Origin: an uncultured Rhizobiaceae group bacterium
GTDB taxonomy: Bacteria > Pseudomonadota > Alphaproteobacteria > Rhizobiales > Rhizobiaceae
NCBI GenBank assembly: GCA_947501445.1
Contig: CANMVS010000003.1
Span: 310,001-374,000, forward strand
Length of the DNA stretch: 64,000 nt
Direction: 5' to 3'
The notes under the pieces were generated by a model that saw only the letters and a list, made by a program, of their open reading frames with translations, was not told where the DNA came from and searched no databases. The position numbers and the translations under genes were made by a program. Positions 22,116 through 37,934 of the stretch are shown piece after piece (position 1 is the stretch's first letter; each line of letters starts with the position of its first letter).

Positions 22116-24173
22116 TTACCTCAAAGCCGCTTCGATATTTCCGCCATCCACGGTCAGGACAGCCGCTGTTGTGCGCTCGGACAATGCAAGGTCGAGGAAA
22201 GCCTGCGCCACATGGTCGGCGGTGACTTCCTGTTTCAGCAGGTTGCCGGCCATATAATCATCTTCACTGACGCCGCGCGCCTTTGATCGGCTGGCAATCA
22301 TATCATCGCTCAACAGGCCGGATCCGATGCGATCGGCATTAACGGCACTACTGCGGACGCCAATTTTGCCGTATTCAAGGGCATACTGGCGGGACAGGAA
22401 CAAGGTGGCGGCTTTTGGCAGGCCATAGGCACCGAAGTTGGCGCCGGGGTTGATGGCCTGCTTTGAGGTATTGAACAACAACACGCCACCGGTCTGTTGC
22501 GCCTTGAAAAGACGCACCGCATTTTGGGCGACACATTGGTGGGCAAAGAAATTCAGTTCGAAGCTTTTGCGCAATGTTTCATCTTCAAGCAAGCCGATCT
22601 CACCCTGCCAGGCTGCACCGGCATTGGAAATGACAATATCCACACCACCAAATTGGCTGGTTGCACGATCAAAGGCAGCCCGAACCCTGGCGGCATTCGT
22701 CACGTCACAGCCAACACCAACGGCGTCATTGCCAATTGAAGCAGCAACCGCGGATGCCGCTTCGCCATCAAGGTCGGCAACAACCACATGCGCTCCGGTT
22801 TGTGAGAGCAGCCGTGCAGTGGCCGCACCAATGGCGCCAGCCCCGCCTGTCACAAGAGCGACCTGGCCGGTCAGTGGCAGAATTTTACGGCTTTTGAGCT
22901 TGGCCTGTTCGAGCGACCAATATTCCAGTTTGAACAGGTCTTCTTTCGGCAAGGGGGAGAAGTCACCAATACTATGGGCGTTGGCAACCGTATCCATCCA
23001 CACTTCGGCAACATCGCCTGATATGTGCGCTGTGCGGGCGGTGCGGCCAAAGCCGAATACACCCAAACCCGGAACGATTGCCATACGCGGCATTGGGTCC
23101 AGCATGGTGCGTTCGATATCATCAGCGCCATTGCAGCTTTCGAAATATGCCTGATAATTTTTTGCATAAGCAGCGATTGCAGCGCGGGCTTTTGGTGCCC
23201 AGGCATCAACACCATCTGCCGGGCACGGTGGCAGAATGACCGGCCAGTTTTTAACGTGGATCGTCAGGTCCGGCGTTGTCACACCGCGCATACCATAGTC
23301 TTCAAGTTCAGCACCGTTGATGAATTCCAGAACCCGGTTGGATGTTCTGAAATCGGCAACAAATCGATTGTAGTGCCCCTCTCCAAGAGCTTCGGCCACA
23401 GCGCCGCGCAAAATGGGCACCAGTGCCGTGGCATCGGCTGATTGTACAGGCAGGTCAGGACGGGCAGAGATCACCCTTTTGTGGTTGGCAGCAACATAAT
23501 CTTCGGCAGCATTGACCGCATCAATCATCCGGTCATAGGCCTGTTTGGCCGTATCGCCAAAAGTAAATATACCGTGTTTGTCGAGGATCAGACCTTCGAC
23601 TGATGGGTCTTTGTCAAAGACTTCGGCGGCCACCTTTGCCAATTCGAACCCCGGCGGAATATAGGGCACAAACCCCATGCGGCTGCCGTAGACTTTGCCT
23701 ATGCGCCCGGCGCTATCTTCCTGATCCACCAGCGCAAGTACGGCTGTGGAATGGGTATGATCAACAAATTTGTGCGGCAGGAAAGCATGAAGCAGGGTTT
23801 CAACGGACGGGTTTGGGGAGGATGGATCGATAAGATTGGCCCGTTGCAGCGCCACCATGTCTTCATCACTGAGCGTGTTGCGTGCACGCGCCTTCAACAG
23901 TGGCTCCAGCTTGACGGCGGGCAGGCCCGCGGGTTCGATGACGGCCATATCCCAGCCGCTGCCCTTGACGCACAGCACATCCCAAACGTCTCCGAGAATA
24001 TCTGATGTGCGTGTTTTTACCGATGTGTTACCGCCGCCATGCAGCACGAGTTGTTGGACGCCGCCCAGAAGTTGTGTCGTATAAACCCGTAAAGCCAGAT
24101 CTTCAGAGATATTGTTGGCCGCATAACGTGCAATACAGGCGCTTGCCTCATGATCATTCCACAGGTTTTTCAT
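22116..24173 (-). CDS. Bifunctional class II aldolase / short-chain dehydrogenase
   Basis: A 685-residue fusion. Residues about 1-400 are a class II (zinc) sugar-phosphate aldolase with GGGNTSVK and VDHTHSTAV (zinc His-x-His). Residues about 430-685 are an SDR with the Rossmann motif TGGAGAIG, SNAG, and YxxxK in AYGLPK. The best-known relatives are RhaD/RhaEW, which split rhamnulose-1-phosphate into DHAP and lactaldehyde and then oxidise the lactaldehyde. No rhamnose genes lie here. The divergent SorC gene and an operator-like site shared with the mtnK/ABC promoter region suggest instead 5-methylthioribulose-1-phosphate or 5-deoxyribulose-1-phosphate as substrate, with the SDR acting on the aldehyde. 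Enzyme class is firm; substrate is inference. Confidence 0.85.
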   Translation of the reverse strand: MKNLWNDHEASACIARYAANNISEDLALRVYTTQLLGGVQQLVLHGGGNTSVKTRTSDILGDVWDVLCVKGSGWDMAVIEPAGLPAVKLEPLLKARARNTLSDEDMVALQRANLIDPSSPNPSVETLLHAFLPHKFVDHTHSTAVLALVDQEDSAGRIGKVYGSRMGFVPYIPPGFELAKVAAEVFDKDPSVEGLILDKHGIFTFGDTAKQAYDRMIDAVNAAEDYVAANHKRVISARPDLPVQSADATALVPILRGAVAEALGEGHYNRFVADFRTSNRVLEFINGAELEDYGMRGVTTPDLTIHVKNWPVILPPCPADGVDAWAPKARAAIAAYAKNYQAYFESCNGADDIERTMLDPMPRMAIVPGLGVFGFGRTARTAHISGDVAEVWMDTVANAHSIGDFSPLPKEDLFKLEYWSLEQAKLKSRKILPLTGQVALVTGGAGAIGAATARLLSQTGAHVVVADLDGEAASAVAASIGNDAVGVGCDVTNAARVRAAFDRATSQFGGVDIVISNAGAAWQGEIGLLEDETLRKSFELNFFAHQCVAQNAVRLFKAQQTGGVLLFNTSKQAINPGANFGAYGLPKAATLFLSRQYALEYGKIGVRSSAVNADRIGSGLLSDDMIASRSKARGVSEDDYMAGNLLKQEVTADHVAQAFLDLALSERTTAAVLTVDGGNIEAALR

Positions 24174-24480
24174 TGCCCACTCCGTTAACGTATCATCACT
24201 GTATGATTTGTCCTGTTTCTAGCGGAAACCCCGTTTATTGACAATAGTCAAAATGTAATGACAAACGTCAATACGGATTATGTTAACGTTTGATCTGTTG
24301 CGCGAGACCCTGGGCAGGCAATGATTTATGGCCCAATATTCATGCTGCCGTGGGTGGTGGTGAATGATGGCTGCCAAAACACAGGCATTCCTTTATGGAT
24401 GAGCCTGAACTATGGCTTTGATTAAGTGTCCGGATTGATTTAACAATCCTTCAGGATGGCTGCTTGGGAGTGATTGACGA
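24174..24480. other. Divergent promoter region aldolase-SDR / sorC
   Basis: About 307 bp. It contains an overlapping pair of inverted repeats at 24238-24262 and the TAACGTTTGAT box at 24284-24294, both of which recur in the mtnK/ABC divergent region. The remainder shows no gene. Confidence 0.6.
24247..24262. promoter_or_regulatory. Predicted SorC-family operator, site 1
   Basis: GTCAAAATGTAATGAC is an imperfect palindrome 74 bp upstream of the aldolase-SDR start. It agrees at 14 of 16 positions with GTCAAGATGTATTGAC at 34178-34193 in front of the ABC importer. It overlaps a second inverted repeat TTGAC-AATA-GTCAA (24238-24251). The box TAACGTTTGAT follows at 24284-24294, and the same 11 bases recur at 34211-34221. 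A regulator gene of the SorC family is adjacent. Confidence 0.6.
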
Positions 24481-25452
24481 TTGGGGCAGGAAAAGAAAAA
24501 AGCGCGCCGTCGTTACCGGCCGGATGAATCTGTAGAAGATACATTGTTGCGTGCCGCGTGGCTTTACTACTACGAAAATCAGAATCAGAACGAGATTGCA
24601 GAGGCGTTCGGTGTGTCACGGGCGACTGTGGTCAACTATCTGCAGCAGGCTCGTGAACGCGGTCTTGTTGAGATCCGGTTGGATCCGGCGGCCTTTAACA
24701 GACAACGCATATCTGTCGAATTATGCCGCAAGTATGGCCTGCAGGAGGCGGTGGTCGTGCCCGGCACCCAGGTCTCACTGCCCGGTGTTGCCATTGGTGC
24801 CGCCCGGCGTCTGCCTGATCTTTTGTCACCCGGGGATGTGGTGGGTGTCGCCTGGGGCATGACCATATTCAGCCTGTCGGAAAAATTGACCCGGCGCACC
24901 ATCGATAATGTCACAATTGTCCAAATGGTCGGCTCAATGGCCAGTCCATATGTCTTTGCCGCAGAAAGCTGCTCAACCAATATTGCCCGCAGGCTTGGTG
25001 CCCGCGTGGCAAATTTCTATGCGCCGGCAGTCCTGTCATCGGCGCAGGCCGCTGATATATTGATGCAGGAACCGATAATTCGTACGCAGTTTGAACTGTT
25101 GAATAAAATCAACAAGGCTGTGTTTGCGGTAGGTTCGTGCGAGATGGACAGTCATGTCGTGCAAAGTGGTATTGCATCGCCCGCTGACCTGGAGACCTAT
25201 AAGGCACGTGGTGCTGTTGGCGTTGTGTGCGGTCGTTTTATTGATGCTGCAGGCGCACATATCGTTGGTCCGCTTGATGAAAGAATGATCGGTATTACAC
25301 CCGATGCATTGCGCGGCCTTTCGGTTGGCATGCTTGTCTCCAACGGGTTTGACAAGGTGGCAGGCATGCAGGCAGCCATGCTTGGCGGTTATGTTACCCA
25401 TCTGGTCACGGATGCACCCACAGCGCAGGCGCTGCTCAATCTCGATACATAG
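24481..25452 (+). CDS. SorC/DeoR-type sugar-binding transcriptional regulator
   Basis: A 323-residue regulator. Residues about 17-62 form a helix-turn-helix (YYENQNQNEIAEAFGVSRATVVNYLQQARERGLVEI). The rest is the SorC sugar-phosphate-binding domain, with GAARRLPDLLSPGDVVGVAWG and a C-terminal GMLVSNGFDKVAGMQAAMLGGYV. SorC proteins bind phosphorylated sugars and switch off or on neighbouring catabolic genes. The start is TTG at 24481, about 10 bases after GGGAG; no better start exists. It is divergent from the aldolase-SDR gene and likely controls it, itself and the mtnKA/ABC genes 9 kb away. Confidence 0.9.
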   Translation: MGQEKKKARRRYRPDESVEDTLLRAAWLYYYENQNQNEIAEAFGVSRATVVNYLQQARERGLVEIRLDPAAFNRQRISVELCRKYGLQEAVVVPGTQVSLPGVAIGAARRLPDLLSPGDVVGVAWGMTIFSLSEKLTRRTIDNVTIVQMVGSMASPYVFAAESCSTNIARRLGARVANFYAPAVLSSAQAADILMQEPIIRTQFELLNKINKAVFAVGSCEMDSHVVQSGIASPADLETYKARGAVGVVCGRFIDAAGAHIVGPLDERMIGITPDALRGLSVGMLVSNGFDKVAGMQAAMLGGYVTHLVTDAPTAQALLNLDT

Positions 25453-25763
25453 CCGGAATAAAATTGCAGATAATGCGATATTAAGGCAACTCAGGTGTGG
25501 TTGGCGACTTGATACTGGTCCACGAGCCGAACGCAATGACGACCAAAACCAGTCGAAGTTCTGTTTGCGGTGATCCAAATTTTGCCTGTGTGCTGCACTG
25601 CGACTCGCGAACGATGACCCGTATCGCCCTTTCAGACCGCCTTGTCTTCAGACGATTCCGGGTCATCATTGGGGCCATAATATCGATGCTTGGTATTAAT
25701 CGAGTGTGTTGTCGAATTCCATTTTTATCTCGTTTGATGAGCACGAATGCGGGTGCGATGAAT

Positions 25764-25862
25764 TAGACCGTTTCACGGTTTGTCAGAAACGGGATTACGG
25801 TGTTAGTCTTTGATTTTATTGATGCATTCAGGTTTTTCCGGTTCCGTCAAAACCTGAATTGC
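25764..25862 (-). repeat. Dispersed two-hairpin intergenic repeat, copy C
   Basis: Same unit as 2394-2495 in the opposite orientation. It begins TAGACCGTTTCAC and ends CAAAACCTGAATTGC, with GATTTTATTGATGCATTC between the hairpins. Both hairpins are more diverged than in copies A and B. It lies at the left edge of the TetR-TRAP cassette. Confidence 0.82.
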
Positions 25863-25967
25863 GCCAGCGCATGCAGTGAGTCAATTCCCAGATCCCTTGG
25901 TACCAATTACGGACCTTCTTTGCCCGCTTCAATGGGGGCTCAATGAAAATAATGGGCGCATGATCTT

Positions 25968-25991
25968 TACATACCGACCGGTTGGTATGTA
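25968..25991. promoter_or_regulatory. TetR-type operator
   Basis: Half-sites TACATACCGACC (25968-25979) and GGTTGGTATGTA (25980-25991) are inverted repeats with one mismatch. ATACCGACCGGT-type palindromes are typical TetR-family sites. It sits 38 bp before the tetR start codon, so autoregulation is likely. Confidence 0.75.
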
Positions 25992-26029
25992 TGATGGCGA
26001 AACATTCAGTTTTAACCTGAGGGAATTTC

Positions 26030-26674
26030 ATGAAGCAGAAAAAGCCAAATCAACGGGTGCGTGATGGCGAGCGCACGGTGGCACTTCTCAAGAGGGCAAC
26101 CATGGAGCAACTGATATCCAATGGCTTTGCAGGTTTGTCGGTTGGACCAATTTGCGAGAGGGCCGGAGTATCTCGTGGTGCGCTATTTCATCACTTCCAG
26201 TCGAAAGACCATTTGGTAGCTGCATCCTTCGAAGAGCTTCTCAAGGATTTTGCGAAGCAAATGCATGAAATTGGGCGAAACCTGCGGCGCGGCGCGATCT
26301 CGATTGATGAGTTTGTGGTCCGGATAAGCGACACAATGGCCAGCGATCTCTTTGTGGGATGTATGGAAATTTCGCTCGGAATTCGATCAGAGTTTGGTCT
26401 TTCGCCTTTGGTTGAAAAGGCAATTACCGATTGGCGTCTATCGCTCTTTGACTTTTGGAACAGCACATTTGACCTTCCGGGCTTTGATGCAGAAGACCGC
26501 GCGACCCATTGGGCGATGGCGTCAAATTTGCTTCGAGGTCACGCGTTTTCGTCCTCCTTCGGAGCAGGTCCGCAAGCCAAGGAGAGGCTCTATCGTGGTT
26601 TTCCCAAGCTCATTTTGAACTGTGCGGTCGTGAGACCAGAGCAGGAAAATATCGTCCAACTCAACAACAAATAA
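26030..26674 (+). CDS. TetR/AcrR family transcriptional regulator
   Basis: A 214-residue regulator. Residues about 18-66 form the TetR helix-turn-helix (AGLSVGPICERAGVSRGALFHHFQSKDHLVAAS), followed by an all-helical ligand domain. It stands first in a co-directional set with the TRAP transporter, M24 protein and GAF protein, 23 bp before the binding-protein start, so it probably controls that set together with the palindrome upstream of it. The ligand is unknown but may be the TRAP substrate. Confidence 0.88.
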   Translation: MKQKKPNQRVRDGERTVALLKRATMEQLISNGFAGLSVGPICERAGVSRGALFHHFQSKDHLVAASFEELLKDFAKQMHEIGRNLRRGAISIDEFVVRISDTMASDLFVGCMEISLGIRSEFGLSPLVEKAITDWRLSLFDFWNSTFDLPGFDAEDRATHWAMASNLLRGHAFSSSFGAGPQAKERLYRGFPKLILNCAVVRPEQENIVQLNNK

Positions 26675-26697
26675 ACCGATCATCAAGGGGAAGTATT

Positions 26698-27831
26698 ATG
26701 AAGCTTTTGACCTGCGCTTTGGCGCTGTCAATTGGTGCAGTCACTGTAACTGGTCCTGCACTGGCACGAGATTCGATTGTGGCTGCGACCTGGTTACCAC
26801 CCAATCACCAATACTCGCGGTTTCTCTACACCTATTGGGCAGAGCGGCTGGCAATGCACTCTGGTGGAGCATTAACCGCTGAGGTGGAACTGGGCTCACC
26901 TCGCGTCACCGCATCGAGTAACCTTGCAGAAATAGCAGATGGCCTGGCCGATGTTTCCGGACACTTTGCACAATACACGCCAAGTGAATTGCCGGTCTCC
27001 AATGCCGTTGAGGAATTGGGGATGACATTTGGGGATCCCAGGGTCATCATTGCTGCGGCAACGGAATTCAACGTTATGGATCCCGATCTGCAGGCTGAAT
27101 GGGCGGACCATGACGTTGTGTTTGCTGGCTCGTACGCAACCAATCACTACAAATTCATCTGTAACCAGCAAATCACAAACCTCGAAGAATTGCAGGGTGC
27201 CAAACTTCGGCTCCCTGGGCGGGCACCTGCTGAGTGGGCGAACGCTGCCGGCGCGGTGACCGTCGCATTTAACACCAACGAGCAGTATGGCGCGCTGGAC
27301 AAGGGCGCACTGACTTGTACGACGACGACAGCAGCAGACGCCTATGTGCGCAAACTTTATGAAGTTGCTCCCCATGTCACCGATTTGCCCATCACGCTCT
27401 TCTGGGCTGGTCTTGGTCATGGATATAATCCAGGCGTTTGGTCGGAACTGACGATCGAGCAACGCCGTGCTGCCTTGAATGCAGAAGCGGATGCCATGGC
27501 TGCTCTGATTGTCGAGGGAACCTTGCTGGAAGAAGCAACTGCACGCGAAAAACTCAAGGAGAAAGGTGTGCTGTTTCACGAGCCGCAGGATGACCTGATT
27601 GCCTCCATCACTGCATTCCGCGAAGCGCAGCCAAAAGCTGCGGTCAATGTAGTGCGCGATACTTTCAATATTGAAGATCCCGAGGCGTTGCTGGGCCGGT
27701 TCCGAGCAACCGTAAAAAAGTGGGAAGAGCTCCTGCAAGACGTACCGGTGCAAGACCAGGCTGCGTTGGCTACACTCATCCGTACACAGATCTATGACAA
27801 GCTCGATCTGGCGACTTACGGCGTCAATTGA
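26698..27831 (+). CDS. TRAP transporter solute-binding subunit (DctP family)
   Basis: A 377-residue periplasmic protein that captures a substrate, usually an organic acid, for a TRAP importer. Residues 1-22 form a signal peptide (ending GPALA). GAKLRLPGRAPAEW contains the conserved arginine that normally binds a carboxylate. The ATG at 26698 follows AGGGGAAG; the frame is open further upstream but those starts fall within tetR. A strong hairpin separates it from the permease genes. The substrate cannot be read from sequence; the M24 protein downstream hints at an amino-acid derivative or dipeptide-like compound. Confidence 0.88.
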   Translation: MKLLTCALALSIGAVTVTGPALARDSIVAATWLPPNHQYSRFLYTYWAERLAMHSGGALTAEVELGSPRVTASSNLAEIADGLADVSGHFAQYTPSELPVSNAVEELGMTFGDPRVIIAAATEFNVMDPDLQAEWADHDVVFAGSYATNHYKFICNQQITNLEELQGAKLRLPGRAPAEWANAAGAVTVAFNTNEQYGALDKGALTCTTTTAADAYVRKLYEVAPHVTDLPITLFWAGLGHGYNPGVWSELTIEQRRAALNAEADAMAALIVEGTLLEEATAREKLKEKGVLFHEPQDDLIASITAFREAQPKAAVNVVRDTFNIEDPEALLGRFRATVKKWEELLQDVPVQDQAALATLIRTQIYDKLDLATYGVN

Positions 27832-28023
27832 GCACGGGTCATCGTTCGAGAGACGTAACGCAGCTCGGCGGGCGAATTTGGGCCACCGCAGGCTGGAATT
27901 TCTGTAGGTTATGGACGTCGTTGCGATCGGCTCGTGGTACCAGTACCAAGTCGCCGACCGCGCCTAGCCAAAACCCGCAGAAACTCCAGTCATAGGGGTC
28001 AGTATTATCGACGCTTGGTATAA

Positions 28024-28052
28024 AGGCCGGGGTTCACCGGGTGCCCCGGCCT
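28024..28052 (+). repeat. Intercistronic hairpin between TRAP binding protein and permease
   Basis: Arms AGGCCGGGG (28024-28032) and CCCCGGCCT (28044-28052) are exact inverted repeats with an 11-base loop. No T-run follows. Its place after a solute-binding-protein gene fits a structure that slows 3' decay or partly terminates, giving more binding protein than permease. Confidence 0.65.
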
Positions 28053-28077
28053 CCTGAAAAGAGCGGGAGGACAGCAC

Positions 28078-28575
28078 ATGGACTGGATAAATCGCGCAGT
28101 GGGGCGCATGGCAAATTTTCAATTGGTTTTATCCGCAATCGGCGTTCTGGCAATTCTGCTGACAATATCCCTCGACGTATTCCTGCGCGCCGCTTTGAAT
28201 GCTCCCCTCAGTTCCACCATCGAAATCGTTTCGTTCTATTACATGATACCTGTTGTGTTTTTTCCGATGATGTATCTGGAGCATACCGGCACGCATATAG
28301 ACACTGACCTCTTCTATCGCCTGTTCCCAACAGGTTTCCAAAAATTCTCTGATCTTGTCTCAGGACTGATCACGATCTGTATCTACAGTGTGATTGCGTT
28401 TCTATCGTTCAAACAGGCCATCACATCGACGAAGAGCGGTGAAGTCGCAATGGGCGTGAATCTCATTCCGATCTGGCCAGTGCGATGGGTTTTGCCGCTC
28501 GTTTTTGCCAGTTCTGCACTGGCAGCAATGCTCTTTACAGTCCATCGAATCCGAAAAGGAAATAACGATGCTTGA
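28078..28575 (+). CDS. TRAP transporter small permease (DctQ family)
   Basis: A 165-residue inner-membrane protein with four predicted helices, the small subunit that joins the large permease. The DctQ pattern is visible (LDVFLRAALNAPLSSTIEIV, then GTHIDTDLFYRLFP). The ATG follows GGGAGGA. It overlaps the next gene by 8 bp. No fusion to the large subunit. Confidence 0.88.
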   Translation: MDWINRAVGRMANFQLVLSAIGVLAILLTISLDVFLRAALNAPLSSTIEIVSFYYMIPVVFFPMMYLEHTGTHIDTDLFYRLFPTGFQKFSDLVSGLITICIYSVIAFLSFKQAITSTKSGEVAMGVNLIPIWPVRWVLPLVFASSALAAMLFTVHRIRKGNNDA

Positions 28576-29881
28576 GCAACTCCTTCCAGTTCTCGTCGCG
28601 TTTGGAGTGTTGCTTTTTCTCATTGCGATACGCACGCCGATCGGCTTGGCGCTGATTGCTGTTTCCTTCGTGGGTATCGCATATGAAACCAGCGTTCGGG
28701 CGGCAATTGGATCAATTGCGCGTCTCCCCTATGAGTTGGCAACCAACTGGAGTTTCTCAGCCGTTCCAATGTTTCTCCTGATGGGCTACGTCGCCTCTGA
28801 AACGGGGCTGACCAAAGGGCTCTTCGGTGCCTCGCGTGTTCTGCTGTCCAAGCTTCCCGGGGCTCTGGCCTGTGCGAGCGTCATGGCGAGTGCGTTGTTT
28901 GCAGCAGCTTCGGGGTCTTCTGTCGCCACGGCTGCGTCCATGTCCCGCATTGCAATTCCAGAGATGCTCGATCGCAAATATGATCCGGGATTGGCATGCG
29001 GTACAATCGCGGCCTCGGGCACATTGGGTTCCCTAATCCCGCCAAGCATTCTCATGATCCTCTACGGGGTCTACTCAGACGTATCCATCGGAGCCTTATT
29101 CATGGCTGGTGTAATACCGGGGATTCTTTCTGTCGCAATCTACATGAGCATGATTGTAACGCGCTGCAAACTGAACCCAAATCTTGGAGGTAGTCACTTT
29201 GTGGATGAAGGCCCCAGGCCCGACCTTAGCAAAATCGTGATGGATATAGCGCCTTTGCCAGCCCTGATTGCAATTGTGATGGGCAGCATTTCTTTTGGGA
29301 TTGCCACACCCACTGAAGCAGGTGCGCTGGGCGCAATCGGTGCCGTGCTGATCGCACTAATCTCAGGGCGTTTTCAATTGCGCGCTTTTTTTAGCGCACT
29401 GAAACACAGCGCGATCTCGTTCACATCAATCTTCATCATCGTAATCGGTGGTGCATTGCTCACGCGATTTGTGGCTGTGGCAGGATTAAACCGGCTACTG
29501 GAGGATGTTTTCCAACAAAGCGCGGCAGGACCTATTGCCCTGATTTTAGCCGTTACGCTTCTCTACATCGTGCTCGGAATGTTCATCGACTCAATCGGGT
29601 TGCTTTTGCTGACTGCACCACTGATCATTCCGCTGGCAAATTCTCTCGGTATTGATTTGATCTGGTTTGGAATCATCCTCATCAAGCTTCTTGAAATTGG
29701 ATTGATAACGCCGCCTGTCGGGCTGAATATCTTTGTAATCCAGGGCTCATTGGCAGGTCGGGTTCCGCTTCCAGCCATCTTCAAAGGTGTGACGTGGTTC
29801 ATTGCCATGGATGTTGTCACGCTGGTTATCCTCATCACATTCCCTTCCATCACTCTATGGCTGCCTAGCTTCCTGAATTGA
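28568..29881 (+). CDS. TRAP transporter large permease (DctM family)
   Basis: A 437-residue membrane protein with about 12 helices, the channel subunit that couples uptake to Na+ or H+. Family features include FLLMGYVASETGL, GSSVATAASMSRIAIPEM, GTLGSLIPPSI and TPTEAGALGA, and near the end LLEIGLITPPVGLNIFVI. The start at 28568 overlaps dctQ by 8 bp, which implies translational coupling. Confidence 0.92.
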   Translation: MLEQLLPVLVAFGVLLFLIAIRTPIGLALIAVSFVGIAYETSVRAAIGSIARLPYELATNWSFSAVPMFLLMGYVASETGLTKGLFGASRVLLSKLPGALACASVMASALFAAASGSSVATAASMSRIAIPEMLDRKYDPGLACGTIAASGTLGSLIPPSILMILYGVYSDVSIGALFMAGVIPGILSVAIYMSMIVTRCKLNPNLGGSHFVDEGPRPDLSKIVMDIAPLPALIAIVMGSISFGIATPTEAGALGAIGAVLIALISGRFQLRAFFSALKHSAISFTSIFIIVIGGALLTRFVAVAGLNRLLEDVFQQSAAGPIALILAVTLLYIVLGMFIDSIGLLLLTAPLIIPLANSLGIDLIWFGIILIKLLEIGLITPPVGLNIFVIQGSLAGRVPLPAIFKGVTWFIAMDVVTLVILITFPSITLWLPSFLN

Positions 29882-29892
29882 AAGACACAAAT

Positions 29893-31047
29893 ATGAAAAT
29901 CGAAGAAATTTTCGTGGGACCGTCCACCATTGAAATGTCATCTCGCATTGGCCGGGTTCAGGCAGAACTGCAAGAACGGGGTTTGGCCGCCTATGTCAGC
30001 GCTGCGCCAGCCAACATTCTGTGGTTGACGAATTTTGCCAACTTCATTCACGAACGCCCATTTATCCTGGTAGTCCCGCAAAATGGCAGGCCGATGTTTT
30101 TGGTGCCTTTATTGGAATTGGACCATGTAAATCACCGGGTGGTTGGAGACGTTGAGTTTGTCACTTATTCTGAGTTTCCCGCCCCTGACGGAAATCGCTG
30201 GCAAGATCGTTTTTCCAACATTCTTCCTGTCACGGGAAACATCGGCATCGAGGAAATGCTGCCGAATGCAATCGTTCGCGCCTGCGGAGATCGCGTTACC
30301 CCGTTGGATCTGGTTGATCTGCTGCGAGCAATAAAATCAGACTATGAGCTTGGAAGGATCGCATATGGTTGCCGCCTGATGAGCGATGCCCATATCGATC
30401 TGCTTTCCAGGGCACACCCTGGCATGTCACAAAGTGATATCAATCAAACCATAGGAAGGTCCGTCCTGAAGCGGCTTGGAGACGACAATGCGGCTATGAA
30501 CCCCTTTGCAACAAGCATCATGACCTTGATCCAAAATCAACGCGTTTCCCATGATCCGCACAATTTCACGGATCTGGATATGGCGATGTTACCAGGAGGG
30601 CCCCATATCACCGTCTTTAACTCGGTTCTGAATGGATATGGCGCAGAAGTAGAACGCACCTTTTTTCTCGGAGCTGTACCAGAAGACGCCAAAGCTCCAT
30701 TTGAGGCGATGATGGAAGCTCGACGTCTGACGTTCGAGCTCACACGGGCCGGAAACATTCTGGGCGATGTTGACCGGGCAGTGAACAAGCTGTTTGCAGA
30801 CAGCGGATACGCCGAGGCCCGCCGACACAGGGCAGGTCACGGTATGGGGGTAACCGCACACGAAGCTCCATTTATTGCAGACGGAGATGAGAGCGAGATC
30901 CGCCCGGGCATGGTATTTTCAATCGAACCCGGAATTTATCTCCCGGGACTGGGCGGTTTTCGTCACTCGGACACTGTTGTCGTTACCGATGATGGTTTGG
31001 AATGCCTGACGTCGAGCCCTGATCTGCTGGAAGACTTGATCCTGTGA
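29893..31047 (+). CDS. M24 (creatinase/aminopeptidase P fold) family protein
   Basis: A 384-residue protein with the two-domain creatinase/prolidase layout: an N-terminal domain (about 1-145) and a C-terminal pita-bread fold. Metal M24 peptidases have five ligands, Asp-Asp-His-Glu-Glu. Here the region of the first two reads TVFNSVLNGYGAEVERTFFLG, so the Asp pair is replaced; His in RAGHGMGVTAHE and Glu in FSIEPGIY remain; the last Glu region reads GGFRHSDTV. This resembles creatinase- or ectoine-hydrolase-like members that do not use two metals. It probably hydrolyses a C-N bond of the imported TRAP substrate. An upstream TTG (29878) overlaps dctM; the ATG at 29893 is preferred. Confidence 0.8.
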   Translation: MKIEEIFVGPSTIEMSSRIGRVQAELQERGLAAYVSAAPANILWLTNFANFIHERPFILVVPQNGRPMFLVPLLELDHVNHRVVGDVEFVTYSEFPAPDGNRWQDRFSNILPVTGNIGIEEMLPNAIVRACGDRVTPLDLVDLLRAIKSDYELGRIAYGCRLMSDAHIDLLSRAHPGMSQSDINQTIGRSVLKRLGDDNAAMNPFATSIMTLIQNQRVSHDPHNFTDLDMAMLPGGPHITVFNSVLNGYGAEVERTFFLGAVPEDAKAPFEAMMEARRLTFELTRAGNILGDVDRAVNKLFADSGYAEARRHRAGHGMGVTAHEAPFIADGDESEIRPGMVFSIEPGIYLPGLGGFRHSDTVVVTDDGLECLTSSPDLLEDLIL

Positions 31048-31055
31048 GGTGAAGA

Positions 31056-31574
31056 ATGGTTGACCATGGCTCAGACACAGTTATCCGTAACGCCCGCCAC
31101 CAGTCCTCGAGTTCCGAGCGCCTTGTTGCCAAATGTGCGCTTAAACTCCAGGCATTGGTTGGATGCAAGGCAATCACGATACTCGCGATTAATACCGAAA
31201 CTGGTGCAGCGCGCCGAATCTATTCTTCAGCTTCTGACGTTTTTCCATTATTCGGCACGAAACAAATTCCCACGGGTCTTTGGACAGACCTTGTTGTGAC
31301 CAAATGCGTTCCCGCCATTTTCACCGGTAGCGAGCAGATTCAAAACACCTTCGCAGATCATCGAGAAATCCTGACGCATGGGTTTTGCTCGGTGTTGAAC
31401 ATTCCGATCTGTTCAGAAAGAATTTGTGTTGGCAGCGTCAATTGCCTTTTTCACGACGAAGAAGCCGCCGCGATCTATGCCAGGAACAAGGATTCAATAT
31501 CATCCTACATTGAAACCTGCGGTTTGGATGATGCCTTGAAATCAGAAAACGAACTTCGTCCTGTGGTGAAATAA
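31056..31574 (+). CDS. Small GAF-domain protein
   Basis: A 172-residue cytoplasmic protein made almost entirely of one GAF domain, seen in AITILAINTETGAARRIYSS and the closing strands SVLNIPICSERICVGSVNCLF. GAF domains bind small molecules. There is no output domain. The ATG follows GAGGTGAAG and it is the last gene of the TRAP set, 8 bp after the M24 gene. It has five or more cysteines but not the pattern I expect for free-methionine sulfoxide reductase. Function unknown; a sensor of, or binding partner for, the imported compound is possible. Confidence 0.7.
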   Translation: MVDHGSDTVIRNARHQSSSSERLVAKCALKLQALVGCKAITILAINTETGAARRIYSSASDVFPLFGTKQIPTGLWTDLVVTKCVPAIFTGSEQIQNTFADHREILTHGFCSVLNIPICSERICVGSVNCLFHDEEAAAIYARNKDSISSYIETCGLDDALKSENELRPVVK

Positions 31575-31640
31575 TTCCAAATGGGATCGCACCGTCGAAC
31601 TGGCTCGCATGTCGTTTGACTGCGGGTTCTGCAACAGACT

Positions 31641-32759
31641 CTAGACAGCCCGCATGACATCGCTACCGGCTTTTTCCGGGAACAGCTTGGCAAGGCCTGC
31701 CTTGCTGGCACTGCAAACGCCACGTTCGGTTATCAGCCCGGTCACCAGACGTGAAGGTGTGACATCAAAGGCATGGTTGGCAACGGGCGTGGTTTCAGGG
31801 CAAATCAAAACACTGGTCTCCTTGCCATCCTTGTCCTTGCCCGCAACCCAGGACACCTCTTTGCCGTCGCGTTCTTCTATGGGAATTTCACGAAGCCCGT
31901 CATTGATGGTCCAATCAACGGTCGTCGATGGCAATGCAACATAAAAGGGCACACCATTGTCGCGTGCCGCCAGCGCCTTCAGGTAGGTGCCTATTTTGTT
32001 GCATACATCACCGCTCGCAGTTGTTCTGTCGGAGCCAACGATACAAAGATCCACTTTACCATGCTGCATCAGGTGGCCGCCTGAATTATCCACAATTAAC
32101 GTGTGGTTGACCCCGTGTCGTCCCAGTTCCCAGGATGTCAGCGAGGCACCCTGATTGCGCGGTCTGGTCTCGTCCACCCACACATGCACGGGCAAACCCA
32201 TATCATGGGCCTGATATATCGGTGATGTCGCCGTGCCCCAATCCACCGTTGCCAGCCAACCGGCATTGCAGTGCGTTAGTATATTCACCGGGTCGCCAGG
32301 TGCCTTGCGTGTGGCGATGTTTCGAATGATATCAACGCCATGTTTGCCGATCGCATGATTGGTATCAACATCCCTGTCGCAAATCTGAGCCGCCAGGGTC
32401 CAGGCCGCAGCAATGCGCTGGTCTGCAGGCAGTGGCAGCAAGTGACCGACAACCTCATCAAGGGCCCATTTCAGATTGATGGCCGTTGGCCGCGTTGCAT
32501 GCAAAATATCGTAGGCGCGGCCAAGTGCCTCATCGCTGGCATCTTTTTGCATGGCAAGCGCCATGCCATAGGCCGCCGTTGCACCAATAAGCGGCGCGCC
32601 GCGCACCCACATATCCTCAATGGCAATAGCTGCGTCATCGCGGGACTTGAGGGGAATAGTCACAAAGGAATGCGGCAGTCGTGTCTGATCAATGATACCG
32701 ACTGTTTTTCCGTCCGGTTCAGCCCAGATTGAACGGTATTTTTTGCCGTCTATTTTCAT
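31641..32759 (-). CDS. mtnA: S-methyl-5-thioribose-1-phosphate isomerase
   Basis: A 372-residue cytoplasmic enzyme that turns 5-methylthioribose-1-phosphate into 5-methylthioribulose-1-phosphate. It belongs to the eIF2B-like isomerase family. The catalytic pair is present: C164 in [15 protein letters not shown] and D244 in [34 protein letters not shown] is also typical. Its ATG overlaps the stop of mtnK by 4 bp, so the two are translated together. The other methionine-salvage genes (mtnB, mtnC, mtnD) are absent from the window, which points away from the full methionine cycle and toward cleavage by an aldolase. Confidence 0.93.
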
Positions 32760-34045
32760 AATGATACACCCCGGCTTTTAATGGCCCGCGCCAGCGCGCA
32801 CAGCTGACCCATTCCGGAAAAATGATTGCGTCCGACGAGCAATTCACGGCCCATTGCAAGTGCATTGGCCTCGCATGGTGCTCTGCGTTTCGGATCTTCG
32901 ATTGATTGCAGGTCTTCCACATGTGCCAGGCCAACCAGTCTGCGCAGCATCTTGGTGCCTGCAAATCCAATCGTATCGGCAAGCAATTCATCAAGGACCC
33001 TGGTAAGCGCCTGCTCCGAGCCGATGGCATCGTCCTGGTCTTCAAACAGAGTGCGCGGGAACAAAATACCGGTGCGTTCTTCATGCCACAATTGCCGAAA
33101 GCTTGTTTCAAAGCTTGCCCAGGTATCCATCACCGTTGACAACAGCCATTCCTGATACGCATCACGGCTGCCCGGCGCTTCCGCATGGCCGTCCTGAGAA
33201 AAATAGGCCAGAAAATAATTGGCAAACAGGGCACCGGTGTCAAAACCCATCGGGCCATAGAAAGCAAATTCAGGGTCAATGACGCGCGTGTCATCTTGCG
33301 TCACCATCACAGAACCGCTGTGCAGATCGCCGTGCAGCAGGGACTGTGCGTTGCTGGTGAAGCGCTGTTTCATCAATTGGGCCGCGACTTTGAGATCACG
33401 GTCCGTGCGCAGCGATAATGCCAGTCTGTCGAGTTCCGGTGTCGTCCAGCTATTGAGTTCCGCATCATGATAGGGATCGGTAAAGACCAGGCTTTCTGTG
33501 ATGTCACACAATTCCACGTTATCGACAAACAGGGCGACATCGCCTTTCTTTTGCGCCGTCTCCATGTGCAGATCTGAGGTGCGAAACAAGGTTTGCGCCA
33601 TGAATGTGCCAAGGTCATGGGCAATTTTCGGATAGATCGTCGCGGCGATAAATCCTTTGCGCAGAATGATATGTTCGGCAAGAAATTCCATTGCGATCAG
33701 CGCGTTGGCTTCGTCAAAAGCATATATTTCCGGCACCCGCGCACCACTCGTAACAGCATTGGTCTGCCGGGTCAGCGCGTGATACTCAAAAAAGGATCGT
33801 TTGAGTGGCAAAGGCCACGATTCGCCCACCAGCCGCACATAGGGCAGGGCCTGCTTGATGATAAGGGAACCGGATGGGCCTTCAACAATGAACACTAGGT
33901 TCAGATTGCCGTCACCCACTTCCACTGTCTTGAGGTCGGATTGTTTGCCACCAACAATGGCCGCAAGCGCCGGGCTGTCACAAACATAAGCTTTGATCGT
34001 CTCAGCTGAAAACGCCGTGTAGTCCTTTGGTGTTTCTATTGCCAT
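32756..34045 (-). CDS. mtnK: S-methyl-5-thioribose kinase
   Basis: A 429-residue kinase of the aminoglycoside-phosphotransferase fold that phosphorylates 5-methylthioribose at C1. The active-site loop [13 protein letters not shown] (about residue 236) and the metal-binding [14 protein letters not shown] (about 252) are clear. The frame opens at 34093, but the ATG at 34045 has GGAGGAG five bases upstream and matches the family N-terminus. It is divergent from the sugar ABC importer genes. Related kinases also accept 5-deoxyribose, so the substrate may be wider than methylthioribose. Confidence 0.92.
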
Positions 34046-34177
34046 CGCCTCCTCCGGGTATCGCGCATACCGACCACAGCCGCTCTGCGGCACATCCGTT
34101 TATTGCCGGTTGTAACTATGACATGCCGGACGAAAACGATTTTGATCCGTTCCAGTAAATGCGTCAAATTGAATTAT

Positions 34178-34193
34178 GTCAAGATGTATTGAC
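34178..34193. promoter_or_regulatory. Predicted SorC-family operator, site 2
   Basis: GTCAAGATGTATTGAC has inverted arms GTCAA/TTGAC and matches the site at 24247-24262 at 14 of 16 bases. TAACGTTTGAT follows at 34211-34221, as at the first site. It lies in the divergent region between mtnK and the ABC ATPase gene, 43 bp from the latter's start, so one bound regulator could control both. Confidence 0.6.
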
Positions 34194-34235
34194 TTTTGAC
34201 AGATTGATTGTAACGTTTGATGCAGGGAGTGAGAT

Positions 34236-35801
34236 ATGAGTGCAGAAAAATTGCATGAAGCTTCCGTGTCCCTGGTGCTTGATCTGGAGGGCGTGGAAAA
34301 GTCCTTTGGTGCGAACAAGGTGCTTCAGGGTGTTGATCTATCGATACGTGCGGGTGAAGTCGTTGTGCTCATGGGAGCCAATGGTGCCGGCAAGTCGACG
34401 CTTGTGAAAATCATCGCTGGTGTCCATGCCGCTGACAAGGGCCGTATTGAGCTTGAGGGCAAGCCGTTCCAGCCATCAACTCCTGCAGCAGCAATCCGGT
34501 CGGGCGTATGCATTGTGCACCAGTCAATCAATGATGGTGTGGCACCGGATTTGAGCGTGGCGCAAAATCTGTTGCTTGATCGGCTCTGCAATGGTGAAAC
34601 GGAATTGTTTTTTCGGCCGGGCCGCGCCCGCAAGCAGGCCGCCGCCATTGCCGCAGCGCTTGAACTTGATCTGGATCTCGACCGCCCGGTACATGAATTG
34701 AACCTTGCTGACCGGCAGCTTGTATCCATCTCGCGTGCCCTGGCGCAAAATCCAAAACTGCTGATTCTGGACGAACCCACTTCCTCCCTGTCGCAGCGCG
34801 AAGCCGAACGGCTGTTTGCCATTATTGACCGTTTGAAGGAAAGCGGTGTGGCAATCCTTTATATCTCGCATCGCATGTCGGATATCCGCCGCCTTGCAGA
34901 TCGCATTATCTCGTTGCGCGATGGCACGATAACCGGCACATTTGAAAAGCCGCTGAATTATGAGGCTGCGGTCCACGCCATGCTCGGACATGCCATTGAG
35001 GTGACCGGGCAACAGGTGGCACAGCGAGGCGAGGCATTGTTTTGCGCATCTGATATCCGGTTGAAACCGACCAGTGACCCTTTTTCGCTGGTGCTGCATC
35101 GCGGTGAAATCGTGGTTCTTACCGGGCTTGTGGGCACCGGTAAATCGGCGCTGGCCGAGTGTATTTTCGGTGTGGCAAAACCTGCCGCAGGTTCATTTGA
35201 GCTTGATGGAATTGCATTTAATCCGACTGATCCGGGAGACGCCATTGCGCGGGGCGTCTTCATGGTGGCAAAGGACCGGGCCAATTCCTCCATCATTCCA
35301 GGTTTTGATATTGCCCAGAACCTGACTCTTCCATTTCTCACACGGTTCTCAACTGCAGGCACCGTTCGGCTGGCCCGTGAAAAACAATCCGCCCGCGCCA
35401 TGATTGATGCCCTGGATGTTGTGTGCCAATCCGAGCAGGATGTTCTTTCGGCGCTTTCTGGCGGGAACCAGCAAAAGGTGGTTATTGCCCGGTGGCTGTC
35501 ACAACCCAGCAAGCTGCTTGTTCTTGATGAGCCATTTCAGGGCGTGGATATCCGTGCACGTGGTGACATCGGCACCAAACTGCGCAACACATCCGATCAA
35601 CGGGCAACACTGGTGCTGACGGCTGAGCTGGATGAAGCCCTGGAAATTGCCGATCGTATTCTTGTCATGAGCAATCATACGATTGTTGGAGAACACCTGA
35701 CCGCTGATCTCAATATGGATCTGCTGATGTCTCAGATATCCGGAGCAACTGCCATGGCTCCGTCCGAAATTGAATCCCTACAATCAACCTACAGGAACTA
35801 A
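34236..35801 (+). CDS. Sugar ABC importer ATPase, RbsA type (two ATPase domains)
   Basis: A 521-residue cytoplasmic protein with two fused ABC domains. Domain 1: Walker A GANGAGKST (about 47-55), a degenerate signature LADRQLVSI, Walker B LLILDEPTSSLS. Domain 2: Walker A GLVGTGKSA (about 295), canonical signature LSGGNQQKV (about 407), Walker B LLVLDEP. The asymmetry is normal for ribose-type importers. The ATG follows GGGAG. Sitting opposite mtnK and sharing its promoter region, it probably powers import of methylthioribose or a related deoxypentose. Confidence 0.92.
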   Translation: MSAEKLHEASVSLVLDLEGVEKSFGANKVLQGVDLSIRAGEVVVLMGANGAGKSTLVKIIAGVHAADKGRIELEGKPFQPSTPAAAIRSGVCIVHQSINDGVAPDLSVAQNLLLDRLCNGETELFFRPGRARKQAAAIAAALELDLDLDRPVHELNLADRQLVSISRALAQNPKLLILDEPTSSLSQREAERLFAIIDRLKESGVAILYISHRMSDIRRLADRIISLRDGTITGTFEKPLNYEAAVHAMLGHAIEVTGQQVAQRGEALFCASDIRLKPTSDPFSLVLHRGEIVVLTGLVGTGKSALAECIFGVAKPAAGSFELDGIAFNPTDPGDAIARGVFMVAKDRANSSIIPGFDIAQNLTLPFLTRFSTAGTVRLAREKQSARAMIDALDVVCQSEQDVLSALSGGNQQKVVIARWLSQPSKLLVLDEPFQGVDIRARGDIGTKLRNTSDQRATLVLTAELDEALEIADRILVMSNHTIVGEHLTADLNMDLLMSQISGATAMAPSEIESLQSTYRN

Positions 35802-35804
35802 AGA

Positions 35805-36812
35805 ATGCCAGAAAGCCCCAAGGCACAGCCGCGTTTCCGGGACCTAGCGATCCGCTACGGGTTCCTTGTTCTGCTGCTGGGGATCGTGATTTTCTTTTCC
35901 ATCATGGAACCGGCATTCATGTCACTGCGTTCCATGGTGTTCGTATTCCAATCCGTGTCAATCACCGCCATTCTAGCGCTTGGCGTGACGGCTACGCTGG
36001 TTGTGGACGGGTTCGATCTGTCCATCGGTTCTGTTGCTGCATCATCGATGATGGCAGCGTCCTATTCGATGGTTATCTGGGGTTTCAGTTCGGTTGAAGC
36101 CGTGGCGTTTTGCCTGTTTTTGGGATTGGCTGTTGGCCTGTTCAACGGGCTGCTTGTTGTGGTTGCCCGGGTCCCGGATCTTCTGGCAACACTCGGCACA
36201 ATGTTCCTGCTTCTCGGGTTGCAGCTGATACCAACGGCCGGACGTTCCATTGCCAAGGGCATGATGCTGCCTGATGGATCAACCGCAACCGGTGCATTCG
36301 ACAAATCCTTTTTGTATCTGGGTCGGCATCGGCTGTGGGATATCCTGCCGGTTTCCGTCCTCATCATGCTTGTTCTGGCGCTGGCGATCTGGTTTTTTCT
36401 GGAATTCACCCGCTGGGGCAGGGTGATGTATGCGATTGGCAGCAATGAGTTGGCAAGCCGGTTGGCTGGTGCACCCGTCGCCCGTTACAAGATTGCCGCC
36501 TATATGATTTCCGGCGTTTCTGCGTCAATCGGCGGCATCCTGCTTGCCGCCCGGGTGGGGCGCGGTGACGTGAGTTCGGGCAATAACCTGCTTCTTGATG
36601 CGGTTGCGGCGGCGCTCATCGGTTTCGCCGTTCTGGGTGTGGCCAAACCCAACGCTTTTGGAACGTTGATTGGCGCGCTCTTCGTCGGTGTTTTGCTACA
36701 GGGTCTGACAATGATGAATGCGCCCTACTACGCACAGGATTTTGTCAAGGGTGCCGTTCTTGTCGTTGCCCTTGTATTTACCTTCAGCCTCACAAGGGCT
36801 GTTCGTCGCTAA
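35805..36812 (+). CDS. Sugar ABC importer permease, RbsC type
   Basis: A 335-residue inner-membrane protein with 8-10 hydrophobic helices, of the branched-chain/ribose permease family. Visible motifs are LGVTATLVVDGFDLSIGSVAA, NGLLVVVARVPDLLATLG and YAIGSNELASRLAGAPV. It starts 3 bp after the ATPase gene with AGGA upstream. It forms the channel for the substrate delivered by the binding protein encoded next. Confidence 0.92.
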   Translation: MPESPKAQPRFRDLAIRYGFLVLLLGIVIFFSIMEPAFMSLRSMVFVFQSVSITAILALGVTATLVVDGFDLSIGSVAASSMMAASYSMVIWGFSSVEAVAFCLFLGLAVGLFNGLLVVVARVPDLLATLGTMFLLLGLQLIPTAGRSIAKGMMLPDGSTATGAFDKSFLYLGRHRLWDILPVSVLIMLVLALAIWFFLEFTRWGRVMYAIGSNELASRLAGAPVARYKIAAYMISGVSASIGGILLAARVGRGDVSSGNNLLLDAVAAALIGFAVLGVAKPNAFGTLIGALFVGVLLQGLTMMNAPYYAQDFVKGAVLVVALVFTFSLTRAVRR

Positions 36813-36884
36813 CGCGGTTGCCGCGTTGGAACTTCGTGTGCCGGATGCATATTGCACCGGTCTATCCTATGGGAGGAAACAATA

Positions 36885-37934
36885 ATGCTTACCAGTATTA
36901 CCCGGCGCATGATGCTCGGGCTTGCCGCAGTGGCAACAACCGGAATGGGGTTTTCGGCCTTTGCTGCTGATATGCCCAAACCGTTTGATAACCCGGGCGA
37001 CGTGAAGATTGCACTCGTGCGTTACCTTTCAACAGGCGATTTTTTCCAGGCCTATCTTTCGGGCGTTGAACGCCAGGCGGCGGCGCTGGGTGTGGATCTG
37101 CGGATATTCGATTCACGTCAGGATGCTGCATTACAGGCTGATATGGTGGATCAGGCCATCGCCCTTGGCGTCGATGGTATCGTTGTTCAGCACGGTCTGA
37201 CTGAATCCATGACAGAAGCTGTACAGCGCGCAGTTGATGCAGGCATCAAAGTCGTTGCCTTTGATGTTAATGTTGAAAATGATGCGGTTCCGCAGGTTGA
37301 GCAAAGCGATCAGCTGCTGGCCCAATTGGCGCTGGAACAGGCGATCAAGGACAATGGCGAAAGCTTCACAGCAGGCTATGTCTATGTGCCCGGCATTGCT
37401 CCGCTTGACCGGCGTGATGAAAAATGGCGCGAATTCAAGGAACGCTACAGCGGCATCAATGAAGTCGCACAATTTGGCACATTGGACAACCCAATCGCCA
37501 ATTCCGTTGCCAATCAGGCATCTGCCGTTTTGCGGGCCAATCCGACAATCAACGTAATGTTCGCTCCTTATGATGAATTCGCCAAAGGTGTGAAAATTGC
37601 GGTGGACGAGGCCGGTGTCAGCAAGGATGTCAAAATCTACAGCGCCGACGTTTCTTCAGCCGACATTCAGGCCATGCGTGAAGACGACAGCGCCTGGGTT
37701 GCGACAGCTGCAACCAATCCTGCTGTTGTGGGAGAAGTCTCCGTTCGTGCGCTGGCAATGCTTCTTGCCGGTGAGGATCCGGGTTCAAATGTGATCGTGC
37801 CACCAACGCTGATCACCCGTGACATGCTGATGGATCTTGGCATTGAAAACATGGAACAGCTTTCGGCAAAACTGCCGCAGTTTGCCCATGCGGATGTTGC
37901 CGTGACCGAATGGATGCCGCTGCCAGATCGGTAG
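36885..37934 (+). CDS. Sugar ABC importer periplasmic binding protein, RbsB-like
   Basis: A 349-residue exported protein. Residues 1-25 are a signal peptide ending FSAFA. The mature part is a type I periplasmic-binding fold (DVKIALVRYLSTGDFFQAYLSG, then ALGVDGIVVQHG and GIKVVAFDVNV). The ATG at 36885 follows GGGAGGAAAC; an upstream in-frame start is unlikely as it would hide the signal peptide. A GC-rich hairpin follows the gene. The ligand is inferred from the neighbouring mtnK and mtnA. Confidence 0.9.
   Translation: MLTSITRRMMLGLAAVATTGMGFSAFAADMPKPFDNPGDVKIALVRYLSTGDFFQAYLSGVERQAAALGVDLRIFDSRQDAALQADMVDQAIALGVDGIVVQHGLTESMTEAVQRAVDAGIKVVAFDVNVENDAVPQVEQSDQLLAQLALEQAIKDNGESFTAGYVYVPGIAPLDRRDEKWREFKERYSGINEVAQFGTLDNPIANSVANQASAVLRANPTINVMFAPYDEFAKGVKIAVDEAGVSKDVKIYSADVSSADIQAMREDDSAWVATAATNPAVVGEVSVRALAMLLAGEDPGSNVIVPPTLITRDMLMDLGIENMEQLSAKLPQFAHADVAVTEWMPLPDR

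Follow-up and report, generated by a model that had tools for sequence, protein, structure and literature searches.

An aldolase-dehydrogenase fusion in an mtnK-mtnA cluster of a Rhizobiaceae bacterium: a likely oxidative variant of the dihydroxyacetone phosphate shunt

What becomes of the product of MtnA in a bacterium in which the later methionine-salvage genes do not accompany mtnK and mtnA? The question is raised by positions 22116-37934 of a 64,000-nucleotide stretch of DNA (hereafter the window; G000:C3:310001-374000) from an uncultured bacterium of the Rhizobiaceae group. In this region mtnK and mtnA are found together with genes for a SorC-family regulator, an RbsABC-like sugar importer and a class II aldolase fused to a short-chain dehydrogenase/reductase (SDR). 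An earlier interpretation made from the sequence alone (the sequence-only reading) had proposed a SorC regulon for the catabolism of 5-methylthioribose or 5-deoxypentoses, and the comparative genomics reported here support this interpretation. We consider the locus to be, with a probability of about 0.78, an alphaproteobacterial and oxidative variant of the dihydroxyacetone phosphate (DHAP) shunt, in which the fused aldolase-dehydrogenase replaces the aldolase Ald2.

In the proposed pathway the importer would take up a 5-substituted ribose (5-methylthioribose and/or 5-deoxyribose), while a nucleosidase acting on 5'-methylthioadenosine (MTA) and S-adenosylhomocysteine (SAH) would also supply the sugar from inside the cell. 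MtnK would phosphorylate the sugar at C1 and MtnA would isomerise the sugar phosphate to the 1-phospho-ribulose, two steps that are expected from the established MtnK and MtnA families. The aldolase half of the fusion would then cleave the ribulose-1-phosphate, a step that we infer from gene linkage; the products would be DHAP and either 2-(methylthio)acetaldehyde or acetaldehyde. Most likely the SDR half would oxidise this aldehyde with NAD+, in the way that RhaEW treats lactaldehyde, and (methylthio)acetate or acetate would result. Methylthioribose or 5-deoxyribose is the presumed substrate, and SorC would control both divergent promoters of the cluster. Precedents for the sequence MtnK-MtnA-aldolase are found in the available text of PMC6079011, PMC10986504 and PMC12632272.

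Linkage of the fusion family to mtnA, mtnK and mtnP

The fusion is a member of the NCBIfam family NF006192 (1037.8 bits against a cut-off of 639, residues 1-685). In a class sample of 385 alphaproteobacterial genomes, 69 genomes hold 70 places of this family above the cut-off. mtnA was present in 65 of the 69, as compared with 116 of the 316 remaining genomes (Fisher 5e-20, kinship being ignored). As judged by the printed coordinates, 22 of the 70 family places follow mtnA on its strand at a distance of no more than 300 bp; 14 further places, for which no mtnA place was printed, were fetched and 9 of them proved to be directly adjacent to mtnA, so that the total amounts to 31 of 70. Beyond these, four places are 0.6-1.9 kb from mtnA and the window itself has a distance of 7.5 kb. 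For the other 34 places, mtnA is on another contig in 22 (one of them a paralogue on contig C6 of the genome studied here), far away on the same contig in three, non-adjacent after fetching in five and absent from the genome in four. Not included in the 31 is locus L207 (G343), where 15 bp separate an mtnA-like gene and the fusion and the TIGR00512 place is on another contig. Three partial below-cut-off rows (G497:C119, G446:C1:1268665 and G438:C296) were left out of the linkage count, and a broken G446 fusion with one internal stop was counted as neither family nor control. Among the controls, none of 13 fusions below the cut-off had mtnP, mtnK or mtnA in the fetched stretch. The co-occurrence with mtnK/mtnA in alphaproteobacteria, which the sequence-only reading had proposed as a check, is thus strongly positive, without extending to every family member.

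The gene orders point the same way. A direct run mtnP-mtnA-fusion is seen in L166 and L173, and the same order recurs in L163 and L175 with 0.55-1.1 kb separating mtnP from mtnA; the first gene of all four runs encodes an MTA phosphorylase (NF006492, 460-516 bits, cut-off 437). The order is mtnK-mtnA-fusion-sorC in L113, L114 and L115, sorC-fusion-mtnK-mtnA in L094 and mtnA-fusion on a Ruegeria plasmid, and in L147, L157, L160 and L202 the fusion lies 10-23 bp downstream of mtnP with no adjoining mtnA. Since the NF006192 gene often follows mtnA or mtnP, it is a candidate for, and may be, the missing step after these genes in related bacteria.

Closer to the window, we examined the best 80 of 444 loci in GTDB contigs, where a gene was scored as present if at least 60% of its length aligned with an identity of at least 40%. 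Within the fetched flanks of these best 80 loci, mtnK was present in 74, mtnA in 73, the importer ATPase and binding protein in 71 and the permease in 70, counts that are non-independent because the loci are mostly from Mesorhizobium. Four of the six loci without mtnK (L039, L064, L075 and L087) are cut at contig ends, and the remaining two, L035 and L065, are complete in length. In the typical Mesorhizobium arrangement, sorC and the fusion gene run into a convergent importer, and mtnK-mtnA is divergent from the importer. The order sample of 150 genomes contained the fusion in 21, mtnK in 33 and both in 12 genomes (Fisher 1.5e-4, again ignoring kinship); in the genomes with both, the two genes were within 11 kb of each other in eight, 26 kb apart in one and unlinked in three. 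In Sinorhizobium meliloti pSymB (L135 and L136), mtnK, mtnA and the importer adjoin sorC, with no fusion within the fetched stretch.

The fusion protein and its family

The fusion gene (22116-24173, minus strand) encodes a protein of 685 amino acids with the Pfam domains Aldolase_II (residues 39-226) and adh_short (residues 437-613) on one chain. The family to which it belongs, NF006192 (PRK08324.1-6), is named bifunctional aldolase/short-chain dehydrogenase by NCBI, a name that states no pathway. An AlphaFold model (pLDDT 85.2, pTM 0.85) consists of an aldolase half and an SDR half and is weak at residues 572-580 and at the C-terminal residues 677-685. Among PDB entries, the modelled aldolase half was matched best by 3m4r, a class II aldolase domain from the N-terminus of a Thermoplasma protein. 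If known class II aldolases are taken as a guide (Glu76 of DrdA in the available text of PMC6079011), Glu and His residues of the aldolase half may bind metal. The SDR motifs are conserved in the family. With the fusion as query against plasmids, 1624 records were obtained, of which 278 had at least 80% query coverage.

The closest named relatives are the fusions RhaEW and RhaD_aldol-ADH (TIGR02632), which have the same aldolase-SDR domain order. On TIGR02632 the window fusion scores 468 bits, under the NCBIfam cut-off of 567.75. The genome has a separate RhaD fusion on contig C14 (L015), which scores 1055 bits on the same model and shares 34% identity with the window fusion; by eye, its neighbours resemble genes for rhamnose isomerase, a kinase, a sugar ABC importer and a regulator of the DeoR type. 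A tree was made by a quick method from 109 of 178 fusions picked by hand, in which L212, L207 and L154 are long-branched and the program flags that long branches meet. The 14 below-cut-off fusions, including the C14 RhaD, fall on one side of a branch with a support of 99 and the window protein falls outside, at a place where long branches meet. The window protein belongs to a clade of 17 rows with a support of 100, and 16 of these rows adjoin both mtnK and mtnA. The two groups also differ in their residues: the presumed aldolase active-site stretch S[VI]E.[LP]LHAF is found in 151 of 164 family rows and in none of the 14 below-cut-off rows, DHTH in 158 versus two, and N.SKQA of the SDR half in 156 versus none. 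Conversely, SxD..LHAF occurs in four and DHMHP in seven of the 14, and neither in any of the 164 family rows. The combination of SxE..LHAF and DHTH in most NF006192 rows thus sets them apart from RhaEW and RhaD, and the window gene lies in an mtnKA and not in a rha locus. The fusion belongs to a family of its own, whose genes are frequently linked to mtnA or mtnP throughout the class, and goes beyond a strain-specific reuse of RhaD.

The cluster, its predicted operators and the salvage genes

All genes named in the sequence-only reading (mtnK, mtnA, the fusion, the SorC regulator and the importer opposite mtnK) were confirmed in place as intact open reading frames (ORFs). mtnA (31641-32759, minus strand; S-methyl-5-thioribose-1-phosphate isomerase) scores 401 bits on TIGR00512 with a cut-off of 279, mtnK (32756-34093, minus strand; S-methyl-5-thioribose kinase) scores 488 bits on TIGR01767 with a cut-off of 275, and the two ORFs share a 4-bp overlap. 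The SorC-family regulator (24481-25452, plus strand; 323 amino acids, PF04198) is divergent from the fusion. Opposite mtnK stands the ABC importer (34236-37934, plus strand), with an ATPase of the RbsA/AraG type (34236-35801), a permease of the RbsC type (35805-36812) and a periplasmic sugar-binding protein (36852-37934; Peripla_BP_4 in Pfam); in the NCBIfam scan all three match sugar-importer families, and none of the displayed matches reaches its cut-off. The distance of 7.5 kb from the fusion to mtnA is due to a block between sorC and mtnA (26030-31574, plus strand), which by its ORF content comprises a TetR regulator, a TRAP transporter (DctP/DctQ/DctM), an M24 peptidase and an orphan ORF. 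In L033 and L034, the nearest relatives with a complete cluster (fusion 82% identical), the gene order is the same and this block is absent; because mtnA adjoins sorC there, the block is probably an insertion and outside the pathway. These two relatives also have an RbsD/FucU-family gene between sorC and the fusion (L033:9423-9896 and L034:9423-9896), and none is present in the corresponding gap in the window. A fucose-mutarotase-like gene adjoins a published 5-deoxyribose cluster (PMC6079011, available text), and both neighbours fit a free-sugar substrate. Elsewhere in the window, positions 8788-20214 encode a repetitive glycine-rich protein of 3808 amino acids, autotransporter-like by eye.

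Both divergent promoters carry the sequence TGWCNNNNGTCA-N8-TGACNNNNKTCA, that is, a pair of TGAC-N4-GTCA elements with a spacer of 8 bp, at 24239-24270 in the fusion/sorC intergenic region and at 34170-34201 in the mtnK/importer intergenic region. The match at these two sites is by construction, because the pattern was derived from them; no third full match was found on either strand of the 6.8 Mb genome. A slightly looser form of the pair is present at both promoters in L033 and L034 and at the fusion promoter in L035, and nowhere else in those loci. In the other 77 loci (1.62 Mb) this form had no match; any sorC that they carry belongs to a different type. When the intergenic regions were aligned, the paired sites constituted the conserved portion, and the likeness of the two window intergenic regions is weak on its own, being equalled by 12 of 300 shuffles. 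Allowing up to two mismatches, the paired pattern was found ten times on the forward and eight times on the reverse strand, as compared with one and five times in the control. Two further pattern searches gave no enrichment: TGACANNNGTCA with one mismatch was not enriched in the window (21 matches versus 15.7 expected, with 13 of 100 shuffles reaching as many), and a 16-bp pattern with up to three mismatches gave 203/204 matches versus 241/218 in the reversed control. Since the 16-bp pattern was no commoner than its control, only full matches count. The one-mismatch place of the paired pattern, on contig C12, has by eye ORFs resembling a sugar permease and a small regulator as neighbours and was not taken into the regulon. 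The pattern searches and alignments thus support the two paired TGAC/GTCA sites as predicted operators through which SorC would control both divergent promoters, a regulon that had earlier been named without demonstration.

The E. coli DHAP shunt is repressed by MtnR (YjhU), according to the available text of PMC12632272, and YjhU of E. coli K-12 is a PF04198 protein in Pfam. A PF04198 regulator beside the operon is therefore common to both systems. The likeness is, however, unspecific: the window SorC shares 39% identity with the E. coli KE47 protein that is encoded beside mtnK-mtnA and presumed to be YjhU, and because the SorC protein on contig C6 reaches 36% with the same protein, the value indicates family likeness only and was dropped as specific evidence.

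The absence of the later methionine-salvage genes from the window, as first described from the sequence alone, was borne out, and it extends to the whole genome (6.8 Mb, 99% complete) for two of them. Acireductone dioxygenase (ARD; MtnD, PF03079) had no match in the genome, with a control search that was positive in Bacillus subtilis, and the three single-domain class II aldolases scored 60, 56 and 25 bits on the MtnB model TIGR03328, which has a cut-off of 137; MtnC and MtnE were not searched. Because the genome is without ARD and without an MtnB above the cut-off, the MtnA product needs another exit. ARD was found in two genomes of the order sample, both with mtnK and both without the fusion, and was thus missing from 31 of 33 genomes with mtnK and from all 21 with the fusion. 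As to the supply of the sugar, an MTA/SAH nucleosidase (MtnN) is encoded on contig C5 (TIGR01705, 329.6 bits, cut-off 152.2), and none of six PF01048 matches in the genome was an MTA phosphorylase above the cut-off. With the nucleosidase, the sugar can arise inside the cell as well as via the importer.

Alternative explanations and known pathways

One alternative is that the fusion is a RhaEW/RhaD enzyme (rhamnulose-1-phosphate aldolase/lactaldehyde dehydrogenase) and only accidentally a neighbour of mtnKA, as its domain order and its 34% identity to the genome's RhaD would allow. Its score below the TIGR02632 cut-off, the separate RhaD at C14 within a rha-like locus and, with the long-branch warning, its placement in the tree led us to rule out a RhaD identity, and with an mtnA/mtnP linkage that recurs across the class this explanation appears highly improbable. 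Neither a grouping of the fusion with RhaD orthologues nor a rha locus wanting an aldolase, two observations that would speak against the sequence-only reading, was made; the rha-like locus L015 carries its own RhaD fusion. Still harder to credit is that MtnK and MtnA, which are common to both pathways, serve universal methionine salvage with MtnB, MtnC and MtnD encoded elsewhere and an unrelated fusion, a scheme that we ruled out on the negative ARD and MtnB searches. The fusion could also take the sugar phosphate of another kinase, with MtnK and MtnA feeding another aldolase, for instance an Ald2-like protein on contig C6, and the linkage reflecting shared regulation. The genome does contain a second NF006192 fusion (G000:C6:335449-337473, L016), which groups with the mtnA-linked Ruegeria fusion in the tree. 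Its neighbours are kinases of the FGGY and PfkB types (by eye), a SorC regulator and a FucA-like single-domain aldolase with 41% identity to the presumed E. coli Ald2, and in the window cluster there is no single-domain aldolase of the Ald2/DrdA type. Moreover, no mtn gene was nearby in 35 of 83 family loci inspected, a non-random set that was partly fetched for a known nearby mtnA, in which some loci are contig ends and L118/L139 is one record twice. On the other hand, inspection by eye of mtnP-mtnA-fusion runs such as those of L166 and L173 revealed neither a sugar kinase nor a sugar importer among the adjoining ORFs. This observation speaks for the product of MtnA itself as the substrate of the fusion, and we regard the involvement of another kinase as quite unlikely.

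Several of these observations nevertheless weigh against an oxidative DHAP shunt with the fusion in place of Ald2. The Ald2-like aldolase on C6 is, as judged by its similarity, a competing candidate for the splitting step; the position of the C6 paralogue beside other sugar kinases indicates that different family members may act on different substrates; and the 35 loci without an mtn gene are to be reckoned on the same side. So are the absence of mtnK from 9 of the 21 fusion genomes of the order sample and, among the 12 with both genes, the three unlinked cases and the one at 26 kb. When the aldolase half was compared by BLASTP with the protein presumed to be Ald2 of E. coli, no significant match was obtained, and the function of the aldolase half is therefore not transferable by orthology. 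In addition, RhaEW orthologues are said in the available text of PMC3870299 to sit always in rha loci, so that RhaEW serves here as an analogue and not as proof, and it is from RhaEW that the direction of the presumed NAD+-dependent oxidation by the SDR half is inferred. The same split might instead be followed by reduction of the aldehyde with NADH to 2-methylthioethanol or ethanol, a course that we find unlikely. Many SDRs are reversible. Rhodopseudomonas palustris makes 2-(methylthio)ethanol from the aldehyde, presumably via an alcohol dehydrogenase, according to the available text of PMC5893883. However, RhaEW, which has the same architecture as the fusion, requires NAD+ and yields DHAP and lactate (PMC3870299, in the part available).

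Two known systems resemble the cluster most directly, namely the DHAP shunt of E. coli ATCC 25922, Rhodospirillum rubrum and Rhodopseudomonas palustris (MtnN or MtnP, MtnK, MtnA and Ald2) and the 5-deoxyribose pathway DrdK-DrdI-DrdA. They have in common with it the kinase and isomerase families, a nucleosidase, a class II aldolase and a sugar transporter. In contrast to both, the cluster has the aldolase-SDR fusion instead of a FucA-like Ald2 or DrdA, and its transporter is of the ABC type and not a permease. The MTA-isoprenoid shunt, with a RuBisCO-like protein (RLP) and a cupin, starts from the same MtnA product, and an RLP gene adjoins mtnA in some relatives. In clusters of Rhizobium, Pararhizobium and Mariluticola, genes for a split transketolase and an RLP come after mtnA (L133:14363-17426 and L139:13100-16156; also L091, L092, L101, L109, L110, L117 and L118); in L117 the two are found beside the importer, and L113 and L114 have the split transketolase alone. 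Among solved structures, 3qfw is the closest to this RLP. This arrangement suggests a second fate of the MtnA product in these relatives. Neither the split transketolase nor the RLP is near the window cluster, and a Pararhizobium RLP query gave no match in this genome in a search made without a positive control. A single targeted search of the open-licence literature found no paper on this branch.

Both pathways of the MtnK-MtnA-aldolase type and aldolase-SDR fusions that serve the rhamnose route have been described before. In open-licence PMC full texts we found no aldolase-SDR fusion assigned to the present pathway, which is no proof, as subscription papers lie outside that body of text; neither the combination of MtnK-MtnA with such a fusion nor the assignment of NF006192 to the pathway came up in the open-licence searches. 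The sequence-only reading had considered the use of a RhaD/RhaEW-type fusion for this route to be new. The novelty of the route stands as far as these papers go, and the type has to be corrected, the protein being of a separate family and not RhaD.

Taken as a whole, the cluster has the look of a regulated pathway for a sulfur-containing or deoxy-pentose that remains from the use of S-adenosylmethionine: the sugar would be imported, and one protein would both split it and handle the aldehyde. mtnA is kept in 181 of the 385 sampled alphaproteobacterial genomes, and NF006192, a widely annotated family that is often found after mtnA or mtnP, offers a direct and testable answer to the fate of the MtnA product. 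With somewhat better than even confidence, we propose that NF006192 fusions are the enzymes that dispose of methylthioribulose-1-phosphate and 5-deoxyribulose-1-phosphate in much of Alphaproteobacteria. This one-protein route would lead directly to DHAP and (methylthio)acetate or acetate, would replace both Ald2 and MtnB-MtnC-MtnD, and would be joined in Rhizobium-type clusters by the RuBisCO-like/split-transketolase branch. If true, an oxidative, aldehyde-handling form would be added to the DHAP shunt, and it would be seen how soil and marine bacteria could draw carbon from by-products of S-adenosylmethionine.

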